DNA of 64,000 nucleotides. Source: Coffea arabica. Lineage: Eukaryota; Streptophyta; Magnoliopsida; Gentianales; Rubiaceae. This document shows, one piece after another, positions 25,519-51,687 of this stretch. Under the pieces are notes generated by a model that had not been told where the DNA came from, ran no database searches, and was given only the letters and a program-made list of their open reading frames with translations. The DNA is taken from positions 1,366,501 to 1,430,500 of the forward strand of contig NC_092317.1 in assembly GCF_036785885.1 (NCBI RefSeq), read 5' to 3'. Positions within the stretch are counted from its first letter, which is position 1; every line of letters starts with the position of its first letter. The position numbers and the translations under genes are program-made.

Positions 25519-27006
25519 TCCAGTTCGGCTGGAATATTCAACAATCCAACGCAAACCCTAACTTAATAATTTTATCTCTTAAAGAATCAACAAAATTAAA
25601 TTAAATTGAAACAAAATCCTAGCATATGAACGCTTGTTATGTAGACGAAATGCGTTGTAAAAACGACTCGAGGATATAAAAGAACCGAAAAATATACATA
25701 TATCAACGTAGTGAAAGTCTTTTTTTAAAAAAAAAAATTTTCCCCTTCCTAAAGTAGCTTAAGAAAAATGAGAAAAACCTAGCAACTCGCCTAATTCTGC
25801 ATTAATTGAAAAAACTGGCAAAGGTAAATTGGGGGTGGTTTTGGTTTTTTTTTTTTTCTTTTTTTTTTTTGTTGGTGGGGTTTTTGGGGAGGAGGTGGTG
25901 TGGATGGGAAGTTCTCAGGGGGCAGGAGGGGATGGTATCAAATCATGGCTTCTCCGTGGGAGCTTTGATCCAATCGAAGCACTAGCGGTTTTTACACTTA
26001 TTAATTGCTTTTTATTTATTCATTCATTTACCCAGTTTTACCGTACGTTTTTCTACTGCGACTACAACTCTTTTGGCTGCAGTAACCTCTTTTTTTCCTT
26101 CTTTTTTTTTGGAACCCCAGAGAGGGGAAGGGGTGGTGGGGGGTAAATGTGGGGGGTAAACGGGGGATTCTTCTTCTTACGTCGTTTTAGAAATCTTCTG
26201 ACAAGACGACATTGTACGAGTTCGTTTTCGGCGCGGACAACCCTTTTGCAGTTTTGTTTTCGTAGCTGTCTGTCCGATATCTTTGCAGTCAATGTGACGT
26301 CATAGATATGTATGTAAAAGTGTATGGATTGCTGTTTTCTGTCGAAAAATTACATCATTTTTCGTAATCACATTTCCTTACTAGCTTTTTTTTTTTTCAT
26401 GTACATCAAATCGTTATAATAATTTTTTTCATAAAAAATGACAGAAAATGCAATCTAAACGGGCCAACTTTCGGTTTTGAATTCTAAGGCAAGACAGACC
26501 ACAGCCGACGGGTCGTTGGAGCAGCACTCTTGTCCTTTCAAATTGACGCTCTGTTATAAAGAAGAGAGAGAGGTGAAATTGTTTAACAAATAATTAAAGA
26601 ATTTTTCCTAATGGGTGTCTAACTCTAATAATCACCCCGAATTTTACCCCACATTGACAATTACTCCAACTCTCTCTTGTATTTATACACTTTTTTTTTT
26701 CAGCGGCAGTAAGGAGGAGGAGGAGGGCAAAAATATGCATTGGCTATATTTCAAAAGCTTGCAATAGACAGCTTAATATTGAATCAATACATACAACAGC
26801 CAAAAAGCTTTGACGTAATGAATGAACCTCTCTCGCTCGCTATGTACTATGCTAGTATACTAGGCCAAAAAAATGTTAAGAATGAGCCGTAGAAGGGACC
26901 ATATATCAAAAACTGAAGATGGCCTAAAAAGGAAAAGAAAAAAAAAATATGCTATACTAGAAGCCAAAACAGGAAGAAAAAAGAGTTTAAAAAAAAAAAT
27001 TCACAA
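25519..27006. other. Intergenic: CKL promoter side and ALA 3' side
   Basis: The left part should carry the CKL leader and promoter: long T runs near 25850 and a G-rich stretch near 26110-26160. A MITE-like element sits at 26322-26460. The right end is the probable 3' UTR of the flippase gene. No coding exon was recognised. Confidence 0.5.
26322..26460. mobile_element. Short MITE, sister of the copy at 44499
   Basis: Left end GTATGGATTGCTGTTTTCTG, right end AGAAAATGCAATCTAAAC. The middle (TCACATTTCCTTACTAGC; CATGTACATCAAATCGTTAT) matches the 44499-44637 element in order and spacing. Non-coding. Confidence 0.7.
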
Positions 27007-38208: not shown

Positions 38209-40866
38209 TCATCTAAGCAGTGATCTTGTCAAATGCTCGCGTGCTGTGGCCAGAGCTTGAGAAATGGTCTGCATTTGGAAAACGTTGAAGCGGCGGGTCA
38301 GCACAAAGGAAATAAAACCTCAGTAAGAATAATCTCCTAAAGTGTTAGTACTAATTTTACCAAAAGACTAAAGGTACTGGACAACACATGTTTATTCACA
38401 TCACACACGCACAAGATAATACCATAACCATAGCTAATTGACGTTTGAGTAACGACCCAGATGCGATCTCCAGTCTTTGGATGCATTTGCAGGTAATATT
38501 GGAAATGAGATTTGAGAAATTTTTTTTTTCTTAAAGGTGAAATATAAGCAAATTAAACCTTTATTAATCTTTCTCAAGCAAATTAAAATCTTTATTATAT
38601 ATGTCAACCACACGTATATGCCTCTTTAAAATATCCAGTGATAAGTAATAGCAAGTTATGATAGAGAAAGTAAGAGAACGAAATTACCTGCTCGGACAAT
38701 GGTGAACCATCATCCATAGTATGGGTGGCTACCTTTCCAGCAATTATACTGCCATCAGTCTCAAGAACGATCCTGACAATCAAAAGAAAGAGGTAAACAA
38801 ACCACAAGTCATGCATTCGAGCGACTTAGCATGCGTGACATGTTCAAAAAGTAGCATAACAGAAGATCCATTCAGAAATTGGACACGCAATGTAGGAACT
38901 CCCAACCATTTGATATGAAGACTTCATAACAATATAAATCTAAGACGAAAAGATGATTTTTAGTACATAACAGCAAGATGTAGTCCACACAATAAACAAG
39001 TGCAAGCCCATTGAGAAATTGTTCTAAAGCTTCCATTGGATGTGAAGAATTTTTCAGTTTCACCTTTGACAGAGGAATAAGGCTTCCTAGCATCCCAGTT
39101 CCAATCTACTTCAAGGGGAAAGTGTATCTGTCAACAGCTCCCCGAAATTTGGGGTCCGGCATGTCAAAGGTGAGAATAAATGACATGAAAATGGTGAAGC
39201 TTTAGCATTTGGCATCGTGAAAGCAGTTTGCAAATGCAATACCCCATTGATCTTAACCCACTCTTCATGAATAGCTCGAATGATAATTGGCAAAAACAAT
39301 ACTGTTAAGCGCAGACATTATTTAGAATTAATTCACATAGAAAATTATTTAAAGGATGGTTAACTCCACTAACTGTTGGTCAGAATCCTATTAGATAAAA
39401 CACCAATTTGCAAAATTTACTAAGCAAACAATCAATCAACTGACTGCATGAAAGATTGAAGCATCGATCCCTCAAAAAAAAAGAAGATTGAAGAGAACAA
39501 TATCACATACAAAGCTTAAAATTACACATCAAAACGACAAACTGGAAGTTCTATTAAGAGACAGGCTTCTATCTCTATCATCAACCCCAACCTCCTTAAG
39601 ACTTGGGAAGTAATCCATGAGAATAAAAGAATTTTCAATACAAGGTTTGAGGCAAAGCTACACACTGGCAGTATATGTCATAGCAGAAGCAAATAGCTTA
39701 CCCCCCATCAACAATCTCGTCAAGGCACAGCAGAATCAGATCTAAGTTCTCAAGTGCCTCCCTTTGGTCCACATTGTTCCTGAAACAAAGCATGCTTGAT
39801 TAACTAAAAGAAAGACAATACCTTCAAGGCAGCATTGGTCCAGTTAAATCCAAAAGGAAGCCTACATATTCAAAGTGCAATACCTGAGAAGCAAGGCAAC
39901 AGCATCATAAAAACCTTGGAGAACAGTAGTTAATATCAGCTCGTTTTCCTCATCACCTCCAGTCACAAAGAAGTGTAGATCTTGAACAAACTTGTACACA
40001 ACAATGTTGCTCTCCAGCATTGCTATCTCCGCTGGAGATCAAAACAACAAAAGAGATTACAATTTTTCCCCCAGGGAGAAAAGGCGGGGGGCTCAAGAGG
40101 AGAGTGCCCAGAGGCAACCCGAATGGGCCCGTCGCTCACTAGTGGATTCATCAGGCCGACAGTAGCACCTGATCCCTCTCCAGAATCAGCCTAAATCACA
40201 TGAATGTGCAGAGTATTCTATCCTAAAAAACGTTGAGACCGACTTATCAGCACTGATCTCTTAGAATTCACAAAAGCCCACATTTGCACTCCCTTAAAGC
40301 AGGAAATGTAAATAGACGTTCCTAAATCCGAATCAGTCCCATGATTCTTTCAGGCTAATTCCACTTCCAGTAAACAATATAAGAGCATAGTTTATCGAAT
40401 TTCCCTGACGACGAATAAACGTTGGACCCTTCAAAGATATCTTGATAGAAAATCGATTACTATTAAAAAATGAACTACATGGGATTCCTGGAGAAGCAAG
40501 GTTACCTTCAGTGCGGGCATTTGTCTTCTGAGTTTTTGTGAAGATAGACTTCTCAAAAGCTAACCTTGCAGCGTTTGTAGGCCAATCATCACAAAAATAC
40601 TTAACCGCCACCCGCTTTCCTTCAGAATCCAATAAGAGGATGTTCTTTATGGTAGGGCAAGCCTCCTACAAAAATTCCAGGATTACCACCCACAATTCAA
40701 AATGCAAATGCAGTACTTATGAGCCAAGAGTGAGAAATGGGAAATATGAATAGATCGGGGGAAAGCAGTTCGACGAAATGCCAGACAGACATCGTCGGAT
40801 CTAAATCTGCGTCATGATTAAGAAAAGAAACCTTTCACCTACGCGAGAGATGGAGAAGGCAGACAT
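38209..40866 (-). CDS. COPZ: Coatomer subunit zeta
   Basis: Small subunit of the COPI coat, which forms vesicles for Golgi-to-ER and intra-Golgi transport; it pairs with gamma-COP. Six exons (high to low): 40843-40866, 40506-40665, 39884-40031, 39702-39779, 38688-38772, 38209-38268. The sum is 555 bases, 184 residues. The longin-like fold of the adaptor small-chain family is seen from [20 protein letters not shown] through [73 protein letters not shown] and the terminal [21 protein letters not shown]. The first exon encodes only MSAFSISR, a short N-terminal extension, and is the least secure part. The fourth intron (38773-39701) is unusually long at 929 bases and holds unassigned open stretches. 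Length and all blocks are normal for the plant family. Confidence 0.95.
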
Positions 40867-42245: not shown

Positions 42246-43148
42246 TTCTTCAAACAAGTTGAATGATCAGTGTGTGATGATGATAATGAGGCAACCCCAA
42301 AGTTTAAAACTTAAAAGACAAGAAGGAAAACGACAACGGTGGAATGAATGATTTGGGGATGGGAAGGATTACAGTCACTGCGGGGCCTTATGCATGATTG
42401 CAAGATAGTAGTATATAAAGAGGGAAGAAAAGGGCAAGACTTGCTGCCCGTTTGCCTATACACCACTGGTATGCTGGCACCACATACATCTCAGAAATTT
42501 CTCGGACTTCACTCGGCCATTTGATTTGAGTTGCATCGATAGATTTTGCTTATCAAACAAGGGATTCTCTTATATCTGCCAGAAAAAGTGTACAAAGAAC
42601 CATATGGTTAACTCTGCTTCCCTCAATTGACAAGTCAATAGCTCTTGTCCTTACGACTATTTTGTTTCTCGATTGCTCCTCCTCTCATCTACACTCTACA
42701 GCTGCTTCTGTCTTTGGATACAAGCAAACTTTTCTCTCCCAATCTATCTCTGAGTCAGATGTGGGGTCCCTTCAGGCTAGATCTGCTTTAACATTTTTTG
42801 GGATTCAGAAACTCGTACTACTAGGCTGCAGAGTCTTCTTATTTTCTCCCTGATGGCTTTCCGTAAGTGGAAGAAAAGAAATCCAGGCACAGATCCTATA
42901 ACTTGCTAGTTGTAAGTCACTCTGATCTGTTGAGTATCAATGTCCGAGACATTAAATCATTCACCTGCTGCTTCTCACAACCTGGACCATCTACCTCTAC
43001 CTGCCTTTCATGTTGATCTATGAGATATGAAACTTTTTCAAATGCGTCCCGAGTATTTCTCTATTGTGCGACTTCCTGCATGGTGCAAACAATCTATTTC
43101 CTCTGTTCCTGCAAGGACGAGAACAAAAACTAAAAATGGCTCATAAGC
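42246..43148. other. Intergenic: EPFL promoter side
   Basis: Probable EPFL upstream region. A plus-strand TATA-like box lies at 42412-42420. A plus-strand frame stays open over roughly 42530-42855 but has no ATG start and no recognisable domain. Confidence 0.45.
42412..42420 (+). promoter_or_regulatory. Plus-strand TATA-like box without assigned gene
   Basis: TATATAAAG is followed by a G/A-rich stretch. It faces away from EPFL, so it would drive a plus-strand transcript into 42445-43100. No coding product was recognised there. Confidence 0.35.
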
Positions 43149-43627
43149 GGAAAAATGGCCAATTTCATCCCTAAACTCTTTTTTGTTATAGTGTCAATTT
43201 AATTCCTAATTTTTATTTCTAATCAATTTGATACGTAAACCTATTTTGCGATACCAATTAAAAACTTTCGTGACAGCGGCACCACCTAAAATTGATTTAA
43301 CTACTAATTGACCAACTAAAAAGTCACGAGATTAAATTTTAAAAAAGCCTTGTCTAAGTGATTCTTCAAACGATTTAAAACTTTTATCTAGTGATTTTTT
43401 ATATGATTTATTTCATTTATTATAACCCCATGAATGATATTTTCAATATACTCCCATTTAATTACTCAACTAAGAGTTAAATCAGTTTTAAGTGGTGGTG
43501 CTGTCACAAAGGTTCTTAATTGGAACCGCAAAATAGGTTCACGTATCAAATTTATTAGGAATAAAAGTTAAGGACCAAATTGATGCTAATGCAAAAGTTT
43601 AGGAACGAAGAAATTGGCCATTTTCCT
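43149..43627. mobile_element. Mutator-like MITE (long TIRs, 9-bp target duplication)
   Basis: Starts GGAAAAATGGCCAATTTCAT and ends with the inverted GAAATTGGCCATTTTCCT. Imperfect inverted repeats extend for roughly 150-200 bp at each end, leaving a short AT-rich middle. Flanks: CTCATAAGC (43140-43148) and CTCATAAGT (43628-43636), 8 of 9 identical. Long TIRs with a 9-bp duplication are typical of Mutator-like elements. No coding capacity. Confidence 0.85.
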
Positions 43628-43684
43628 CTCATAAGTTGAAACTCTACCGTTACCCGTGCATCAATGGTCAGTCTAATTTATAAA

Positions 43685-44949
43685 GGGAAATTTGCCAAAT
43701 TGATCTCTAACATTTTCACAAAAATTTTTTTTAGTTTTTAACATTTAAAATTAACCAGAATAGTCCCTAACATATAAATTATGAGCCAGTTTGGTCATAA
43801 TACTCGTATTTGCTCATTTTTTCGACTAAAAATAGCACACCTCTCTCACATGGATATAATTTTAAGGGCAAAATCGGAAGACATTCGTTAATCCATGGTT
43901 TTAGACTCTTAAAGAAAGAGAATATTCTCTTCAAAGCTCAAGTTCTCAATGGCTACTCTTCCATAACTCCACCCACTCCTCTTAGAGTCAATCTTGAGTC
44001 ATTTTCCCTGCACCTACTCCATCAGATGCATTCCACCATCACCACTAATCCAAAGCATGATGATCTCAAGAGAACCAGAAAACTTGAAGTTTGAAGAAGG
44101 TGAAATTTTGCATTTTGCAATCCTTCATGAAATCCCAAATTGTTGAATCCTTCAGAAGCTGCGATTGTCCATCCTAGCATTCTCCATACTGTTCTTTCCA
44201 TCGTTGATGACATCCCATCCTACCGCAAGATTTTTATCAAAAGTCTATGGTTTTGTTACTTTCAAGAATGTTAAGTCTTTCTTGCTTGGCTTAGAAAACC
44301 CCAGCAATAAAATTGATGGATTTGTCAGCAATAAAATTGGTGGAGAATGTGCCAACCAACTGAGATGAGTTCTGAGACTTTGTTGAATTATTTTGAGAGG
44401 TATGGTGAAATTGAAGAAGGGCTTGGGGGTTTGATATGGGGACAGGGAAATCAAGGAAAGTGCAAAAGCTGCTTTGACTGAGAAGGTGAATTCTGCCTTG
44501 TTTGGATTGTTTGTTTCCGTCGCAAAATATTATCGTTTTCCGTGATCACATTTCCCTATCATCCTTTTCCCTCACATATATCAAATTGTTACAGTAATTT
44601 TTCCATGAAAAATGACGGAAAATGCAATCCAAACACAATATTTATTTGTTGATGGTTTCCGGCTAGTTTGCAAAATGGTGTCGAGGGAAAAAGAGAAAAG
44701 TAATAGGAATCCAAAGGGGATTTTGCCTGTAAAATCATGGATTAACGAATGTTTTCCGATTTTGCTCTTCAAATTATGCTCATGTGAGAAAGGTGTGCTG
44801 TTTTTAGTCGGAGAAATGAGCAAATACGAGCATTATGACCAAATTGGCTCATAATTTATTTGTTAGGGACTATTCTGGCTGATTTTAAATGTTAGGGACT
44901 AAAAAAGGTTTTTTGTGAAAATGTTAGAGATCAATTTGACAAATTTCCC
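43685..44949. mobile_element. Pack-MULE carrying fragments of a UBA2-like RNA-binding protein gene
   Basis: Ends GGGAAATTTGCCAAATTGAT and its inverted partner, with about 218-bp imperfect inverted repeats (43685-43904 and about 44733-44949). A perfect 9-bp target duplication ATTTATAAA lies at 43676-43684 and 44950-44958. No transposase. The interior holds plus-strand pieces resembling a UBP1-associated protein 2 (UBA2) gene: EAAIVHPSILHTVLSIVDD then YRKIFIKSLW (about 44140-44250); GFVTFKNVKSFLLGLENPSN then KIDG (about 44250-44320); and ETLLNYFERYGEIEEGL then TGKSRK (about 44369-44467). The last piece belongs between the first two in a normal RRM. The copy has stops and cannot encode a protein. 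A MITE (44499-44637) lies inside. Confidence 0.85.
44499..44637. mobile_element. MITE inserted in the Pack-MULE
   Basis: TTGTTTGGATTGTTTGTTTC at the left, AAATGCAATCCAAACACAA at the right (inverted TTGTTTGGATTG ends). The inside (CGTGATCACATTTCCCTATC; GAAAAATGACGGAAAATGC) matches the element at 26322-26460. It is younger than the Pack-MULE because it lies within it. Confidence 0.8.
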
Positions 44950-45951
44950 ATTTATAAAATGCTGCTCAAATACTTGTGTAGTCTCTGACTCTCATTACTA
45001 CTTCAAAATTTTGTATTCTTGGCGTCGTATATCTTGTACTGTGGCACTTTCGAATACAGGCGGGGGGTAGTATGTCTACATCTGATACACTGGGGACCGA
45101 CCTTTGTTTGTCCACTAACACAATTTTCAACCTAGAGGTTTAATCGTAGCTCATTAGATCCTTTAGATCAAGAACAAAGCAACCCTTTTTCTTATCCTGG
45201 GTAAAGAAGAGCACCTGATATCATCAGCATTGAATTTCCAGTTTGTTTTTGAGGTGGAAATCGAGAAGTGAATGATAACCCCAGCTATCTAGCTTCTTGA
45301 GAGGTGTGGTACTCATTGAAAAGAAGCATTTACTATTATATGAGCATGAGGAGCCAATTATTTCATACTTATAAAGGCTTCTTGAGGTATGTAATGCAAC
45401 TGCAAAACCGAAGCGGAGAAGAAAGCTTCAAGAAAAGGAAAGCTGATTGCACCATTCAATGCTCTCTCATCAGACACTTTTTAGTATGCTAATTACTGAG
45501 CCACTGATGACTAGCTGCTACATAAGTCGAGATAGCTGGCGATAGACTCTTGTACTCGCACTCAACCCGCTATCAGTCATTGGTGAACTGTTACCTAGTA
45601 AAAGAATAATTTTGGTGGGTAATGCAGCGCGAGTTGATAAAGATTAACTGCACCTGATATGCGTTCCAAGTCCCCCTCCCTCCCCCCCTCTCTCTCTCTC
45701 TCTTTTTTCATACTTTTTAATTTTGTATCCTACAATCCTAGGATGGTTGCAACAGAAATGATGCTTTAACAGTAGCCAGGATTTTAATCTTTGTGAGAGG
45801 GTCTTCCAGAATTGCTAAACCAACTCGCTAACTCAGCCTGTCTTGCATTGAGCGGGATGAGTTACATTACTCTAGAGTCTGCACGATTTGGTTTAGCAAT
45901 CTTTGCGAAAACTGGTAATCCCTGGTGATCTGATGATTTGATCGCTCACTG

Positions 45952-46140: not shown

Positions 46141-46285
46141 TTTTTGTTTGGAATAATTACTGTAACACTTTTTGTGATGTGATATATATGAGATAAAAAG
46201 GTGATTGAAAATATAAAAAAGTATATTGAAAAATGTATTTATGATGCAAGCGAAATTTTTTTTTAAAAAAATTTGCTATCCAAGC
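46141..46285. mobile_element. Short 'TGTTTGGAT' MITE, degraded copy
   Basis: TTTTTGTTTGGAATAATTAC, then ACTGTAACACTTTTTGTGAT and GAGATAAAAAGGTGATTG; the right end reads GCTATCCAAGCAAGCC. Same family as 37402-37573. Confidence 0.65.
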
Positions 46286-47318
46286 AAGCCAATTAATACT
46301 CGAAGAGAAGATGTCTAACCGAAACTTACAGGTTTTTTTTTTTTTTTAGATAAAGTACCTTTTATCCCCTAGTTTAGTGTTTTATCACATAACTCCTTAT
46401 GATTTAAAAATCTATTTATAGTTTGAATTAAAACGTCACCGTTAGTTTTTATTTTAAAATTAACGTTCAATAATAAAAAGTCAAAATTAATTTAATAAAT
46501 TGACAAATATACCCTTTCATTACCTACTTTTTCTTCCTATTAACATAAAAAAGAAGAAATAAAAATAAAAATAGATAAATAAGAACCGAAAAATACTATT
46601 AAAGATTTAATTTAAAAACCTATGATGATATTTGTAGTCAAAAAAGATTTTGTATTTTTGGTTTCTTATTTATTTGTTTTATATTTTCCTTCCATCTTTT
46701 TTTGTTTCTTATTCATTTATTTTTTATTTCCCTTCCCTCTATTTTGTATTTGGAGAAAATTAAGATTTTGTAGACTAAAGTTTAGGTTTTTAAAATCATC
46801 TCCTCTTCTATTCTCTTCTGAAAAAAAAAAAAGAAAATAGAGAAAGTAATGGAAAAAAGAAAAAAAAGTAGTGCAAGGATAAATTTATTAGTTTCATTTT
46901 TACTTTTTACTATTGACCGTTAATTTTAACGAAAAAACTAACTATCACACTTTAACCCAAACATGAAAGAGTTATATATAAGTTTTTAAACCATAAAGAG
47001 GTTACGTGATAAAGAACTAAATCAGAAGGAGGTAAAAGGTAATTTAACCTTTTTTTTTCTGAAGCAATAAGAATTGAAGAAGAGGAGAAAATATTGGAAA
47101 GTAGACTACTTAGAAAATGGAAAGAATGTTTTGAACTTCTGATTCTTGAAGGGATAGGCTGATAAGGGTATTTCAAAGTTCAAAGCCTTCTTTTTTTTTT
47201 TTAAAAAAAAGGTTCATAACCTTCCTCTAGTGGACGCTAGTTTGCATCCTTTACTTTCCAGACTTCGGCACCCCATTTTACGCCAATAAATGTCTTGAGC
47301 GACTCAAAGATGACGCCT

Positions 47319-48711: not shown

Positions 48712-49625
48712 CTATTTCTTGGGGTGAACTGCTTCCACAACAGCTTCAATCTCTTCCTTCACTCTATGAAATACACTCGGTCCCTTAACTTCATCAACCG
48801 GTGTCTTATCATCAATGTCATCGCTTGTTCCGTGGGTTTCCTTGTGGTGACGAGGTGATTTCCCAGCATGAAAGACTGCCTCAATCTCTTCTTTAGCTCG
48901 TTCAATCAAATCAGGTGATTTCACATGTTTCTTATCTGCATCAGATCAACAACAATGACCCCAAAAACATATAGTCAACAACATTACTTTCTTCGTTCCA
49001 CCGCATAGCGCAAACCTTAAAGACAACGACAATAAAACCCCCAATACATCATAGTCCTAGGAATATTCGAGGATTTTCGGAATCAGTAACTCGTATGTTA
49101 GGTTTGGGTCCAAAAAGAACAAAACTTTTTGTTCAATACAATGCAAAGCTCATTTTCATTTTATCTGGACGGCATGCAATATACAAAAGTCAGAGCTGCC
49201 TAGAGGATAGATATAGCATCTCCAAGATTAGATTTTGGGATGGTACTGAATAAATTAAAAAAAGGTTCTGCAAAATAGTATCCTTTACCAGACGGATGTA
49301 CTGATTTTGTACTTCTTAATCAATAGCACCCCGACCCCATGAATTCAGAATAATGTTAACTCTTACAACAAACCCAAGATTATTTCTTTTTGGCATAATT
49401 TTCAGTTATCACATGCGGATTAAAGAATGTTTTGCACAATCATTCGTGAATCACACACACCAAAATGAACAGAAAGGAAAGGAAAAAGAAATGAACTGAG
49501 AAAGAGGGAAAGGGTCCCAGAAAGAAAAGCAATAAACTAATAGTATAAAGATGTCCAAAGGTAAAAATGGTCGAAAATTTACCCGGAGACGAGGATGAGA
49601 ACCCTTTCGTACTGTCTTCTGCCAT
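48712..49625 (-). CDS. Small conserved plant protein with repeated RxKEEIEAV helices
   Basis: Two exons, 49583-49625 and 48712-48935, sum to 267 bases, 88 residues, with the phase kept across the intron (donor CCGG/GTAAAT, acceptor GATGCAG). It opens MAEDSTKGFSSSSPDKKHVK. The unit SPDLIERAKEEIEAVFHA is repeated later as SVFHRVKEEIEAVVEAVHPK. Between them lies a His/Lys-rich stretch (SPRHHKETHG) and an acidic DDIDDKTPVDEVKGP. The end is HPKK. No signal peptide or membrane span; it is predicted to be soluble, with two short acidic amphipathic helices. I believe similar small proteins occur across plants, but I do not know a function or symbol. The internal duplication and clean splicing argue for a real gene. 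Confidence 0.75.
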
Positions 49626-51687
49626 AGGTATAATTTGAAACTTGTAATCAGGCACTATCCTTTGTTTATTTTCTCTTCTTAATGGCTGATCTATTTTGTG
49701 TTTTTCGGAAGCAATTAAAATGGACACTTGGTCGGTGAAGATTACTGGGCCTAAATGGTTTGGGTACACCCAAATCTAATGCTTCAGAAATACATGTGTC
49801 CAACCAAAAAGTTAAGGTTGTCAAGAACTGGGCCTAGTTCACTGGTCCTATTATACAAATTAGTTGCTGGCCCTCCCCAGCTTCCTTTTCTTTGTCCTTG
49901 TACAATTTAAAAAATAAAAAAAAAGCAAAAATCAATTTAACGTTGAGCGAGCAAATAAAAATAATTAAAGTTAATAAGAAAACCCACCCTTCAAATTTTT
50001 TTTTCAAAAAGTAAATAACTCAATTTAATAAAAAAAAGTCTTACTTACTAGAAAAATAGAGTTCTCAGAATAAAAGTAAAGATTTTATTTCCTATTCTAT
50101 TATAGCAACATGTTTACAACCAATTTGGGGAAAAAAAAAACCAAAAACAATACAGTAGGTTGTTTTTTTTAACTATGGGTAATTAATCACCTTTCTAAAA
50201 AAGTCTTAACCCAAATTCGGTTTTAAAAAGTAAATAACTTCTAGAAAAGTAGAGTTCTCGGAACAAAAGTAAAGATTTTATATAGCAACTTGTTGTAAAC
50301 CAACTTTTTTGTAAATATTTTATTTCCTATTGTGTTATAGCAACTTCTTACTAATTACTCACGTGATGGACTTGTAGGTAATTAATCATCTTTTATTTCA
50401 GATTTTGACTAGCAACATTTGATTGATATTTTAAAAAATTTTCAAAAAAAATTAGTTGCCAGCACTGACCTGATTATGGTAGTAATTCGTAAAAATCAGT
50501 CATTAAAATTAAATGTGCTTAGAAATTTAAACATTTGAGGCCATATTTATTTTCATCTAAACTTTAATGACCAGTTGGATTCATACTCTAAACATATGGA
50601 ATTAAAACTGCAGTTCGCTTGAAAAAAAAAAAAAAAAAGTCGCGAATTTTTGTATATATGAAACCGCAGAGTCATATGGCGACTGGTTCAAAAGAACGTG
50701 CCAAGCTCGCACCTTGAAGTTCATTGGTAGTAGACGTTTTGCACTGGGGAAAAAAGGGGTTGTTTGCTTCCTGGGTGTTAGTGTTGAATTTCTGTGAATT
50801 GCTATTATTCAGGTATGATCGATGAATGATTGCGATACAGTTTTGCCGTTTAATTAGAAAGAAATATTTGAAGAAGATGCCGATCGAAGATATATGTCTT
50901 TCTTCAGGAAACGACTTGAACATTTTCCAAGGAAAAACATTTTGTGTCCAAACAAACATTTGACATTCTCTTTAAACTACAAAACTTCGATTCATTCACT
51001 TCATTTAATTAAGAACCCTCAACAGTCAAGGATAAAGAGCTTCTTGGACCCAGAATGTTAGGCATGAAACTGTCCAAACCTGTTCAAAAGTTTTTACTCA
51101 TGCGTTAGATTCGACGATAATTTTTACTCTCATTAGGTTTATGAGTTAGATCTTTTGGTCTAGCAAAACCATAGGTGAAATATGTCCAGAAATTTCGTAA
51201 ACTGCAGAGGGTTTTATTTGAACACTACTGGGTCAAAAACTGAAACGTCGACGAAATTTTTATACAAGTCAGAAAAGCAACAGTTGGTTCTTAATTCTTG
51301 GTTCAATTCAACAAAACCCCTTCAATGGGACGGGTTTCTACTTGAGCAATTCTTATCAAGAATGAAGAACCTTCTCCAGTCCGTATTTTTTGTGTCCCCT
51401 GTCATTTACTTTAGTTTGTTTCTCACCTTGTCTCATTACTATATAAAGGACTTCAGCAAGTATGAAAACCTCGTCAAGCTGTTGCATTCAAACCCGGACT
51501 TTGTTGGATGAACTTGTTTGGGAATTTTCAGGTAAACAAATAGTGTATGTTTTTCAGTCTTCTTTGCTAGTTTAACATTAATTGCTATTATTATTTTCCG
51601 TATGACTTCCCGATGTTCTTGTACTGGATGGAGGAACTGTCAAGATTGACTCTGTGAACTCTCTCCCCTGAAACCCGATTCATTTAG
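49626..51687. other. Intergenic between divergent small gene and IQM gene
   Basis: AT-rich, with a repeated phrase (AAAGTAAATAACT; AGAGTTCTC; AAAAGTAAAGATTTTAT) at about 50010-50090 and 50225-50280. An open plus-strand frame at 51182-51511 could be an upstream part of the IQM gene but shows no family match. No coding exon is supported. Confidence 0.45.

Follow-up and report, generated by a model that had tools for sequence, protein, structure and literature searches.

A multicopy Pack-MULE family in Coffea arabica with collinear cargo from a UBA2-like two-RRM gene

Introduction

According to PMC3310237, Pack-MULEs are non-autonomous MULEs that carry genes or gene fragments. The same text gives a size peak of 1000-1200 bp for the Pack-MULEs of tomato and describes PM-ZIBP, a tomato family of 14 copies, 13 of which have tandem TIRs. 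In rice, 36% of Pack-MULEs (481 of 1337) are multicopy, a figure quoted in PMC8277862. In maize, captured sequences, those of Pack-MULEs among them, can serve as reservoirs of siRNAs that affect donor genes, as reported in a review (PMC13317346). UBA2 proteins (UBA2a/b/c, UBP1-associated protein 2) have two RRM domains (PMC4473998).

Here, we describe an element that belongs to the same kind and whose cargo derives from a two-RRM gene. It lies in a stretch of 64,000 nucleotides, referred to below as the window, which corresponds to C8:1366501-1430500 in the host genome that was searched (1.198 Gb, 131 contigs).

Results

Boundaries and insertion site of the element

The element spans 1265 bp (43685-44949). 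An earlier note on this DNA had called it a Pack-MULE with TIRs of about 218 bp and a perfect 9-bp target duplication (TSD), and the TIRs, the TSD and the host-gene cargo all bear this out. Its features are as follows, blocks being numbered along the parent gene described below.

43676-43684, no strand: left copy of the TSD, ATTTATAAA, 9 bp
43685-43902, plus strand: left TIR, 218 bp, the inner ~11 bp of which overlap captured block 1
43892-44246, plus strand: captured block 1, parent ORF nt 19-398, N-terminal region and RRM1 start (RKIFIRNLG)
44245-44328, plus strand: captured block 2, parent ORF nt 504-587, remaining RRM1 (YGFVTFKN...KIDGF), with a 107-bp deletion before it
44333-44455, plus strand: captured block 3, parent ORF nt 685-806, RRM2 start (MSSETLLSFFEKYGEIEEG...), with a 95-bp deletion ahead of the block and a 4-bp insertion inside it
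44455-44490, plus strand: captured block 4, parent ORF nt 837-872, RRM2, with a 31-bp deletion before it
44491-44643, no strand: secondary insertion, 153 bp, in the window copy only (1 of 23)
44644-44717, plus strand: captured block 5, parent ORF nt 873-946, RRM2 region and beyond
44721-44730, plus strand: TTTTGCCTGT, whose letters equal parent ORF nt 986-995 (by eye), abutting the right TIR
44731-44949, minus strand: right TIR, 219 bp
44950-44958, no strand: right copy of the TSD, ATTTATAAA, 9 bp

The two TIRs are identical at 196 of 219 aligned columns, with 22 mismatches and one gap. Long repeats of this sort are a mark of TIR-type MULEs. A repeat search of 43200-45500 found a single TIR at each end, and no transposase domains were seen in the element. 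As a control for chance TSDs, 2,000,000 random pairs of 9-mers from the window were compared, 61 of which matched.

We found an empty site on the paired C7. The left flank matches C7:1392301-1393982 at 97% and the right flank matches C7:1393992-1395620 at 96%, and a query made of the joined flanks aligns straight through, with a single ATTTATAAA. This uninterrupted site means either that C8 gained the element or that C7 lost it precisely; precise excision from C7 could thus be an alternative to a gain on C8.

The 153-bp secondary insertion, overlooked in the earlier note, emerged from the comparison with the 22 other copies, all of which lack it. Its core (44495-44638, ~144 bp) is a dispersed repeat with at least 40 other matches in the genome at 90-96%. 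The insertion was left unclassified because no clean TSD could be seen by eye at the borders of 44491-44643. A 76% relative of the ~144-bp repeat is present in the window at 26321-26460.

Other repeats surround the element. A palindromic repeat (43149-43626; arms 43207-43320 and 43457-43570, 83% complementary) lies immediately to its left, has many matches in the genome at 65-78% and is found on C7 too, and the right flank holds two more dispersed repeats (46144-46286 and 46337-46600). Pfam (E 0.01) gave no match for the nearby ORFs at 40336-40665, 42530-42850, 48715-48945 and 49443-49775.

Parent gene

The claim that the element carries coding fragments of a host gene was confirmed. A translated search of the host genome for the parent, proposed in the earlier note, was run, and the captured peptides were found to derive from a gene on C9 and C10, at two loci without TIRs that also appear in the host-genome search with the element (C9:51022030-51022957 and C10:46099800-46100718). 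Both parent ORFs are uninterrupted (396 codons on C9 and 402 on C10 as listed, the latter from a TTG start), each has two RRM_1 stretches, and they are 99.3% identical over 916 nt. Within RRM1 of the parent, RKIFIRNLG (residues 126-134) is followed by YGFVTFKN (169-176) and KIDGF (190-194); within RRM2, MSSETLLSFFEKYGEIEEG (residues 239-257) is followed by GTGKSRG (264-270).

Among the best 105 of 266 candidates, four other genes come nearest (C3:13.46, C4:13.34, C9:51.01 and C10:46.09 Mb), sharing 47-49% identity with the parent protein. When these four UBA2-like paralogue loci (L054-L057) are translated, RRM1 comes before RRM2, as in the parent; two of them (L054 and L055) are on the minus strand. 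The UBA2-like RRM source given in the earlier note is thereby strengthened as far as the two RRM_1 stretches and the similarity to paralogues go. The name UBA2 itself is used provisionally for the parent and its paralogues.

At four further loci (C9:50845932, C10:45904630, C5:38524696 and C6:43072480), frames resemble residues 1-150 to 1-182 of the parent at about 50%; the one at C6:43072480 contains stops and the other three do not. No TIR match at any of the four was among the element matches listed, and they could be truncated paralogues.

Cargo order and copy family

The sequence between the TIRs of the window copy is made up of the five parent blocks and the nested repeat. All five blocks lie on one strand in rising parental order, an arrangement with a chance probability of 1/1920 (2 of 5! 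x 2^5) if order and strand were random. The parent match extends to nt 995 in the copy on C12 (L023).

A search for copy number, likewise proposed in the earlier note, placed the element among at least 23 two-ended copies; this is a lower bound, since the copies were scored from the best 40 of 3277 DNA candidates and the best 105 of 266 candidates by parent protein. The 23 copies analysed are L001-L021, L023 and L025; two elements without a cargo match (L039 and L040), 12 truncated copies and one short match at C4:37417742 were left out. The matched blocks are collinear with the parent in 23 of 23 copies (BLAST blocks), 21 copies measure 1090-1170 bp, and the aligned cargo is 85.4-89.6% identical to the C9 parent across copies. 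Fourteen copies, including that in the window, have TSDs identical at 9 of 9 positions at unshifted ends. In the other nine, the TSDs either agree at 7 or 8 of 9 positions or can be matched only by changing their length or shifting the ends, in some cases within T-runs.

The copies form a ladder of deletions. The 95-bp deletion and the 4-bp insertion are common to all 23 (MAFFT indel list), and the 107-bp deletion in RRM1 is present in 21. In the C5 copy (L025), the RRM1 middle is still at its expected position and agrees with the parent at 94 of 106 nt; the C12 copy retains parent nt 485-503 and has a larger deletion of its own. The MAFFT indel list had given the C12 copy the 107-bp deletion, a reading overruled by the BLAST blocks; because nt 485-503 are kept, the deletion is counted in 21 copies and not 22. 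Sixteen of the 23 copies, L001-L016, are set apart by the 31-bp deletion, and 15 of these also have a deletion of 22 bp. The ladder is based on deletions and not on the tree, since support was weak at deep nodes. Within the 23 copies, the nearest to the window copy is L003, at a distance of 0.032.

Because the 95-bp deletion and the 4-bp insertion occur in every copy, they may go back to the capture itself: template switching could have joined two collinear pieces of the one gene (nt ~19-588 and ~684-995), and the other deletions would have followed later. An early deletion accounts for the gap equally well, and we give the two-piece capture tentative, minority credence. The reading that we prefer is a single capture of one stretch, from which pieces were subsequently lost.

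Three sets of copies have flanks in common: L002 and L003 (C3/C4), L010 and L016 (C4/C3), and L017 and L020 (C2) with L019 (C1), the distances between their elements being 0.031, 0.055 and 0.012-0.027, respectively. With shared-flank copies counted once, the 23 loci amount to 19 insertion events. The occurrence at several loci, the different TSDs and the empty C7 site indicate that the element moved as a unit. The loci under comparison sort into near-collinear chromosome pairs. Shared flanks on paired chromosomes imply that the family was already moving before the pairs separated, while the partner of C8 lacks the window insertion. The family is a tidy record of Pack-MULE ageing, with one parent gene, one cargo and a deletion ladder, and its pair-shared insertions and the one empty site allow moves to be ordered relative to the separation of the paired chromosomes.

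The two elements set aside for lack of cargo, L039 (C2:10383127) and L040 (C2:10443171), are ~1.27 kb long and have related TIRs; neither gave a match to the UBA2-like cargo. The 12 truncated copies contain element positions 1-361 only and, among the matches listed, are clustered at C10:34.41-34.72 Mb (8 copies) and C9:37.27-37.50 Mb (4 copies). No second TIR was found within 7-8 kb beyond the 6 of these 12 that were examined (L045-L048, L050 and L051). The truncated copies may be passengers in a tandemly repeated segment.

A relative with transposase domains

A 31-base pattern of the element ends, with up to 3 mismatches allowed, occurs 330 times forward and 330 times reverse in the genome, compared to 0 and 0 for the pattern written backwards. 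At least three long pairs of the pattern exist, at C4:6797857-6805598, C5:30022211-30028001 and C9:41597635-41603197. Both ends of the C9 element (5.56 kb) match the pattern with 0 mismatches, its two TIRs share 90% identity over 255 bp, and it is flanked on both sides by the 9-bp TSD GGTATAAAA. Its ends are 79-83% identical to those of the window element over 190-205 bp. Pfam recognized DBD_Tnp_Mut (PF03108; 1.4e-5, just at the cut-off), MULE (PF10551; 4.8e-11, and a second piece at 4.7e-4, under the cut-off) and SWIM (PF04434; 9.4e-10). The ends of the window element are thus related to those of an element with a MuDR-type transposase. The transposase is spread over three reading frames and, with DBD_Tnp_Mut at the cut-off and one MULE piece below it, may not be intact. 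This relative is not among the best 150 MULE-domain matches of the genome, which means that many other MULE transposases are present. The similarity of the ends suggests that relatives of this type may have been the source of transposase.

At least 10 pairs of the end pattern are spaced 1163-1166 bp apart on several chromosomes; they may belong to a second non-autonomous family with these ends that is more uniform.

Exact matches to the parent and possible small RNAs

The window element has 51 exact 21-mers in common with the C9 parent ORF, the longest exact match being 34 nt, and 37 with the C10 parent ORF, the sequence of which was begun two codons late. Transcripts driven by the TIRs or reading through the element could conceivably yield small RNAs acting in trans to silence the two UBA2-like parent genes. 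These shared 21-mers speak for such an action, the inverted repeats could form a hairpin, and the maize siRNA reservoirs reported in PMC13317346 provide a precedent. However, all 23 copies jointly touch only 154 of the 1171 21-mer start positions of the C9 ORF, and both parent ORFs remain open and alike, and we consider trans silencing unlikely. Still more doubtful is the broader idea that the cargo shared by this family of at least 23 copies would feed small RNAs tuning the parent genes on both of the paired chromosomes, in which case the ladder would record the parts retained.

Coding potential and mutation pattern of the cargo

The longest stop-to-stop frame of the window copy has 97 codons; a 235-aa open frame indicated for two window rows in the search with the parent protein was not upheld, being longer than this maximum. 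In subfamily B, four of five copies have longer forward frames (159 codons in L019-L021 and 132 in L018), and the longest reverse frame, in L003, has 154 codons. These frames are what would favor the cargo being a new coding gene retained by selection. Against this, changes fall evenly on parental codon positions 1, 2 and 3 in L017-L021 (36/42/38, p=0.76) and in L001-L016 (82/84/105, p=0.19), so that neither of the two main subfamilies has a codon-position bias, and the window copy offers just its 97-codon frame. Over all 23 copies the counts are 183/183/229 (p=0.04), a position-3 excess that leans weakly against a fully neutral reading. Coding selection is thus not supported, a retained gene is very improbable, and the cargo fragments are frame-broken and without clear coding constraint.

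In L001-L016, C>T and G>A make up 65% of the changes from consensus. The transition rates at C/G in these copies are 0.090 in CG, 0.098 in CHG and 0.054 in CHH, compared to 0.007 at A/T, figures obtained without a non-transposon control. This bias is the pattern that would be expected of methylated, silent transposons.

Origin of the apparent permutation

The peptides quoted in the earlier note are present in the window, in different forward frames with stops between them. The internal change that it placed at the RKIFIKSLW/GFVTF junction also exists: the RKIFIKSL/YGFVTF join is the 107-bp deletion within RRM1, absent from two other copies. The downstream piece (MSSETLLNYFERYGEIEEG at 44365-44421, with TGKSR) scores 86 against parent RRM2 and 47 against parent RRM1. 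Real as the join is, the proposal that permutation or two captures put the RRM1 middle downstream has next to no credibility, since that piece is RRM2, 23 of 23 copies are collinear, the C5 copy has the RRM1 middle where it belongs and a collinear parent gene was found. The permuted reading came about because the RRM2 piece of a two-RRM protein was compared with RRM1; with parental order and strand kept, neither two captures nor a rearrangement is needed. The note had stated that it would be contradicted by a contiguous host gene whose blocks follow the same order, and the parent comes close to being one, apart from the deletions. When one protein has two similar domains, a deletion can pass for a permutation, a tempting misreading that is corrected here.

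Discussion

A proposed history of the family

We are highly confident in the combined explanation of a Pack-MULE with collinear cargo from a UBA2-like two-RRM gene, probably amplified with a MuDR-type transposase, with a deletion ladder, a late window copy and cargo that is not protein coding. An ancestral MULE would have copied one stretch (~nt 19-995) of the UBA2-like gene between its inverted repeats, probably in a single capture event. Copies would then have multiplied with transposase from full-length MuDR-type relatives having similar ends, and pieces of the cargo would have been lost stepwise during amplification. The window copy appears to be a late product that moved into C8, leaving the 9-bp duplication, and it alone among the 23 copies gained the 153-bp insertion of another repeat. 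What is present today, a collinear, frame-broken cargo seemingly not kept as protein, looks like silenced transposon DNA.

Comparison with known systems

Like UBA2a/b/c, the parent has two RRMs, in the same order as the captured blocks; unlike them, it is a diverged paralogue, with 47-49% identity to the four loci on C3, C4, C9 and C10 given above. Compared to MuDR-type autonomous MULEs, represented by the C9 relative, the window element has the same end pattern, similar ends and a 9-bp TSD, whereas the transposase domains were seen in the relative only. In the largely open-access literature covered, no title or start of an abstract names this Pack-MULE family.

With the Pack-MULEs of rice, tomato and Arabidopsis, the family has in common its non-autonomous nature, long TIRs, 9-bp TSD and host-gene fragment. 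It is of the same kind, here multicopy with at least 23 two-ended copies, and the size of 21 of these is near the tomato peak given in PMC3310237. It is a new Pack-MULE family of an ordinary, well-documented kind of transposon, and apart from the misreading lesson and the ageing record, this is ordinary transposon biology. Going by the same paper, PM-ZIBP is similar in that a gene fragment was amplified to more than 10 copies and the parent gene identified, but it has tandem TIRs in 13 of 14 copies, whereas the window copy has one TIR per end, and the subfamilies described here are marked by internal deletions.
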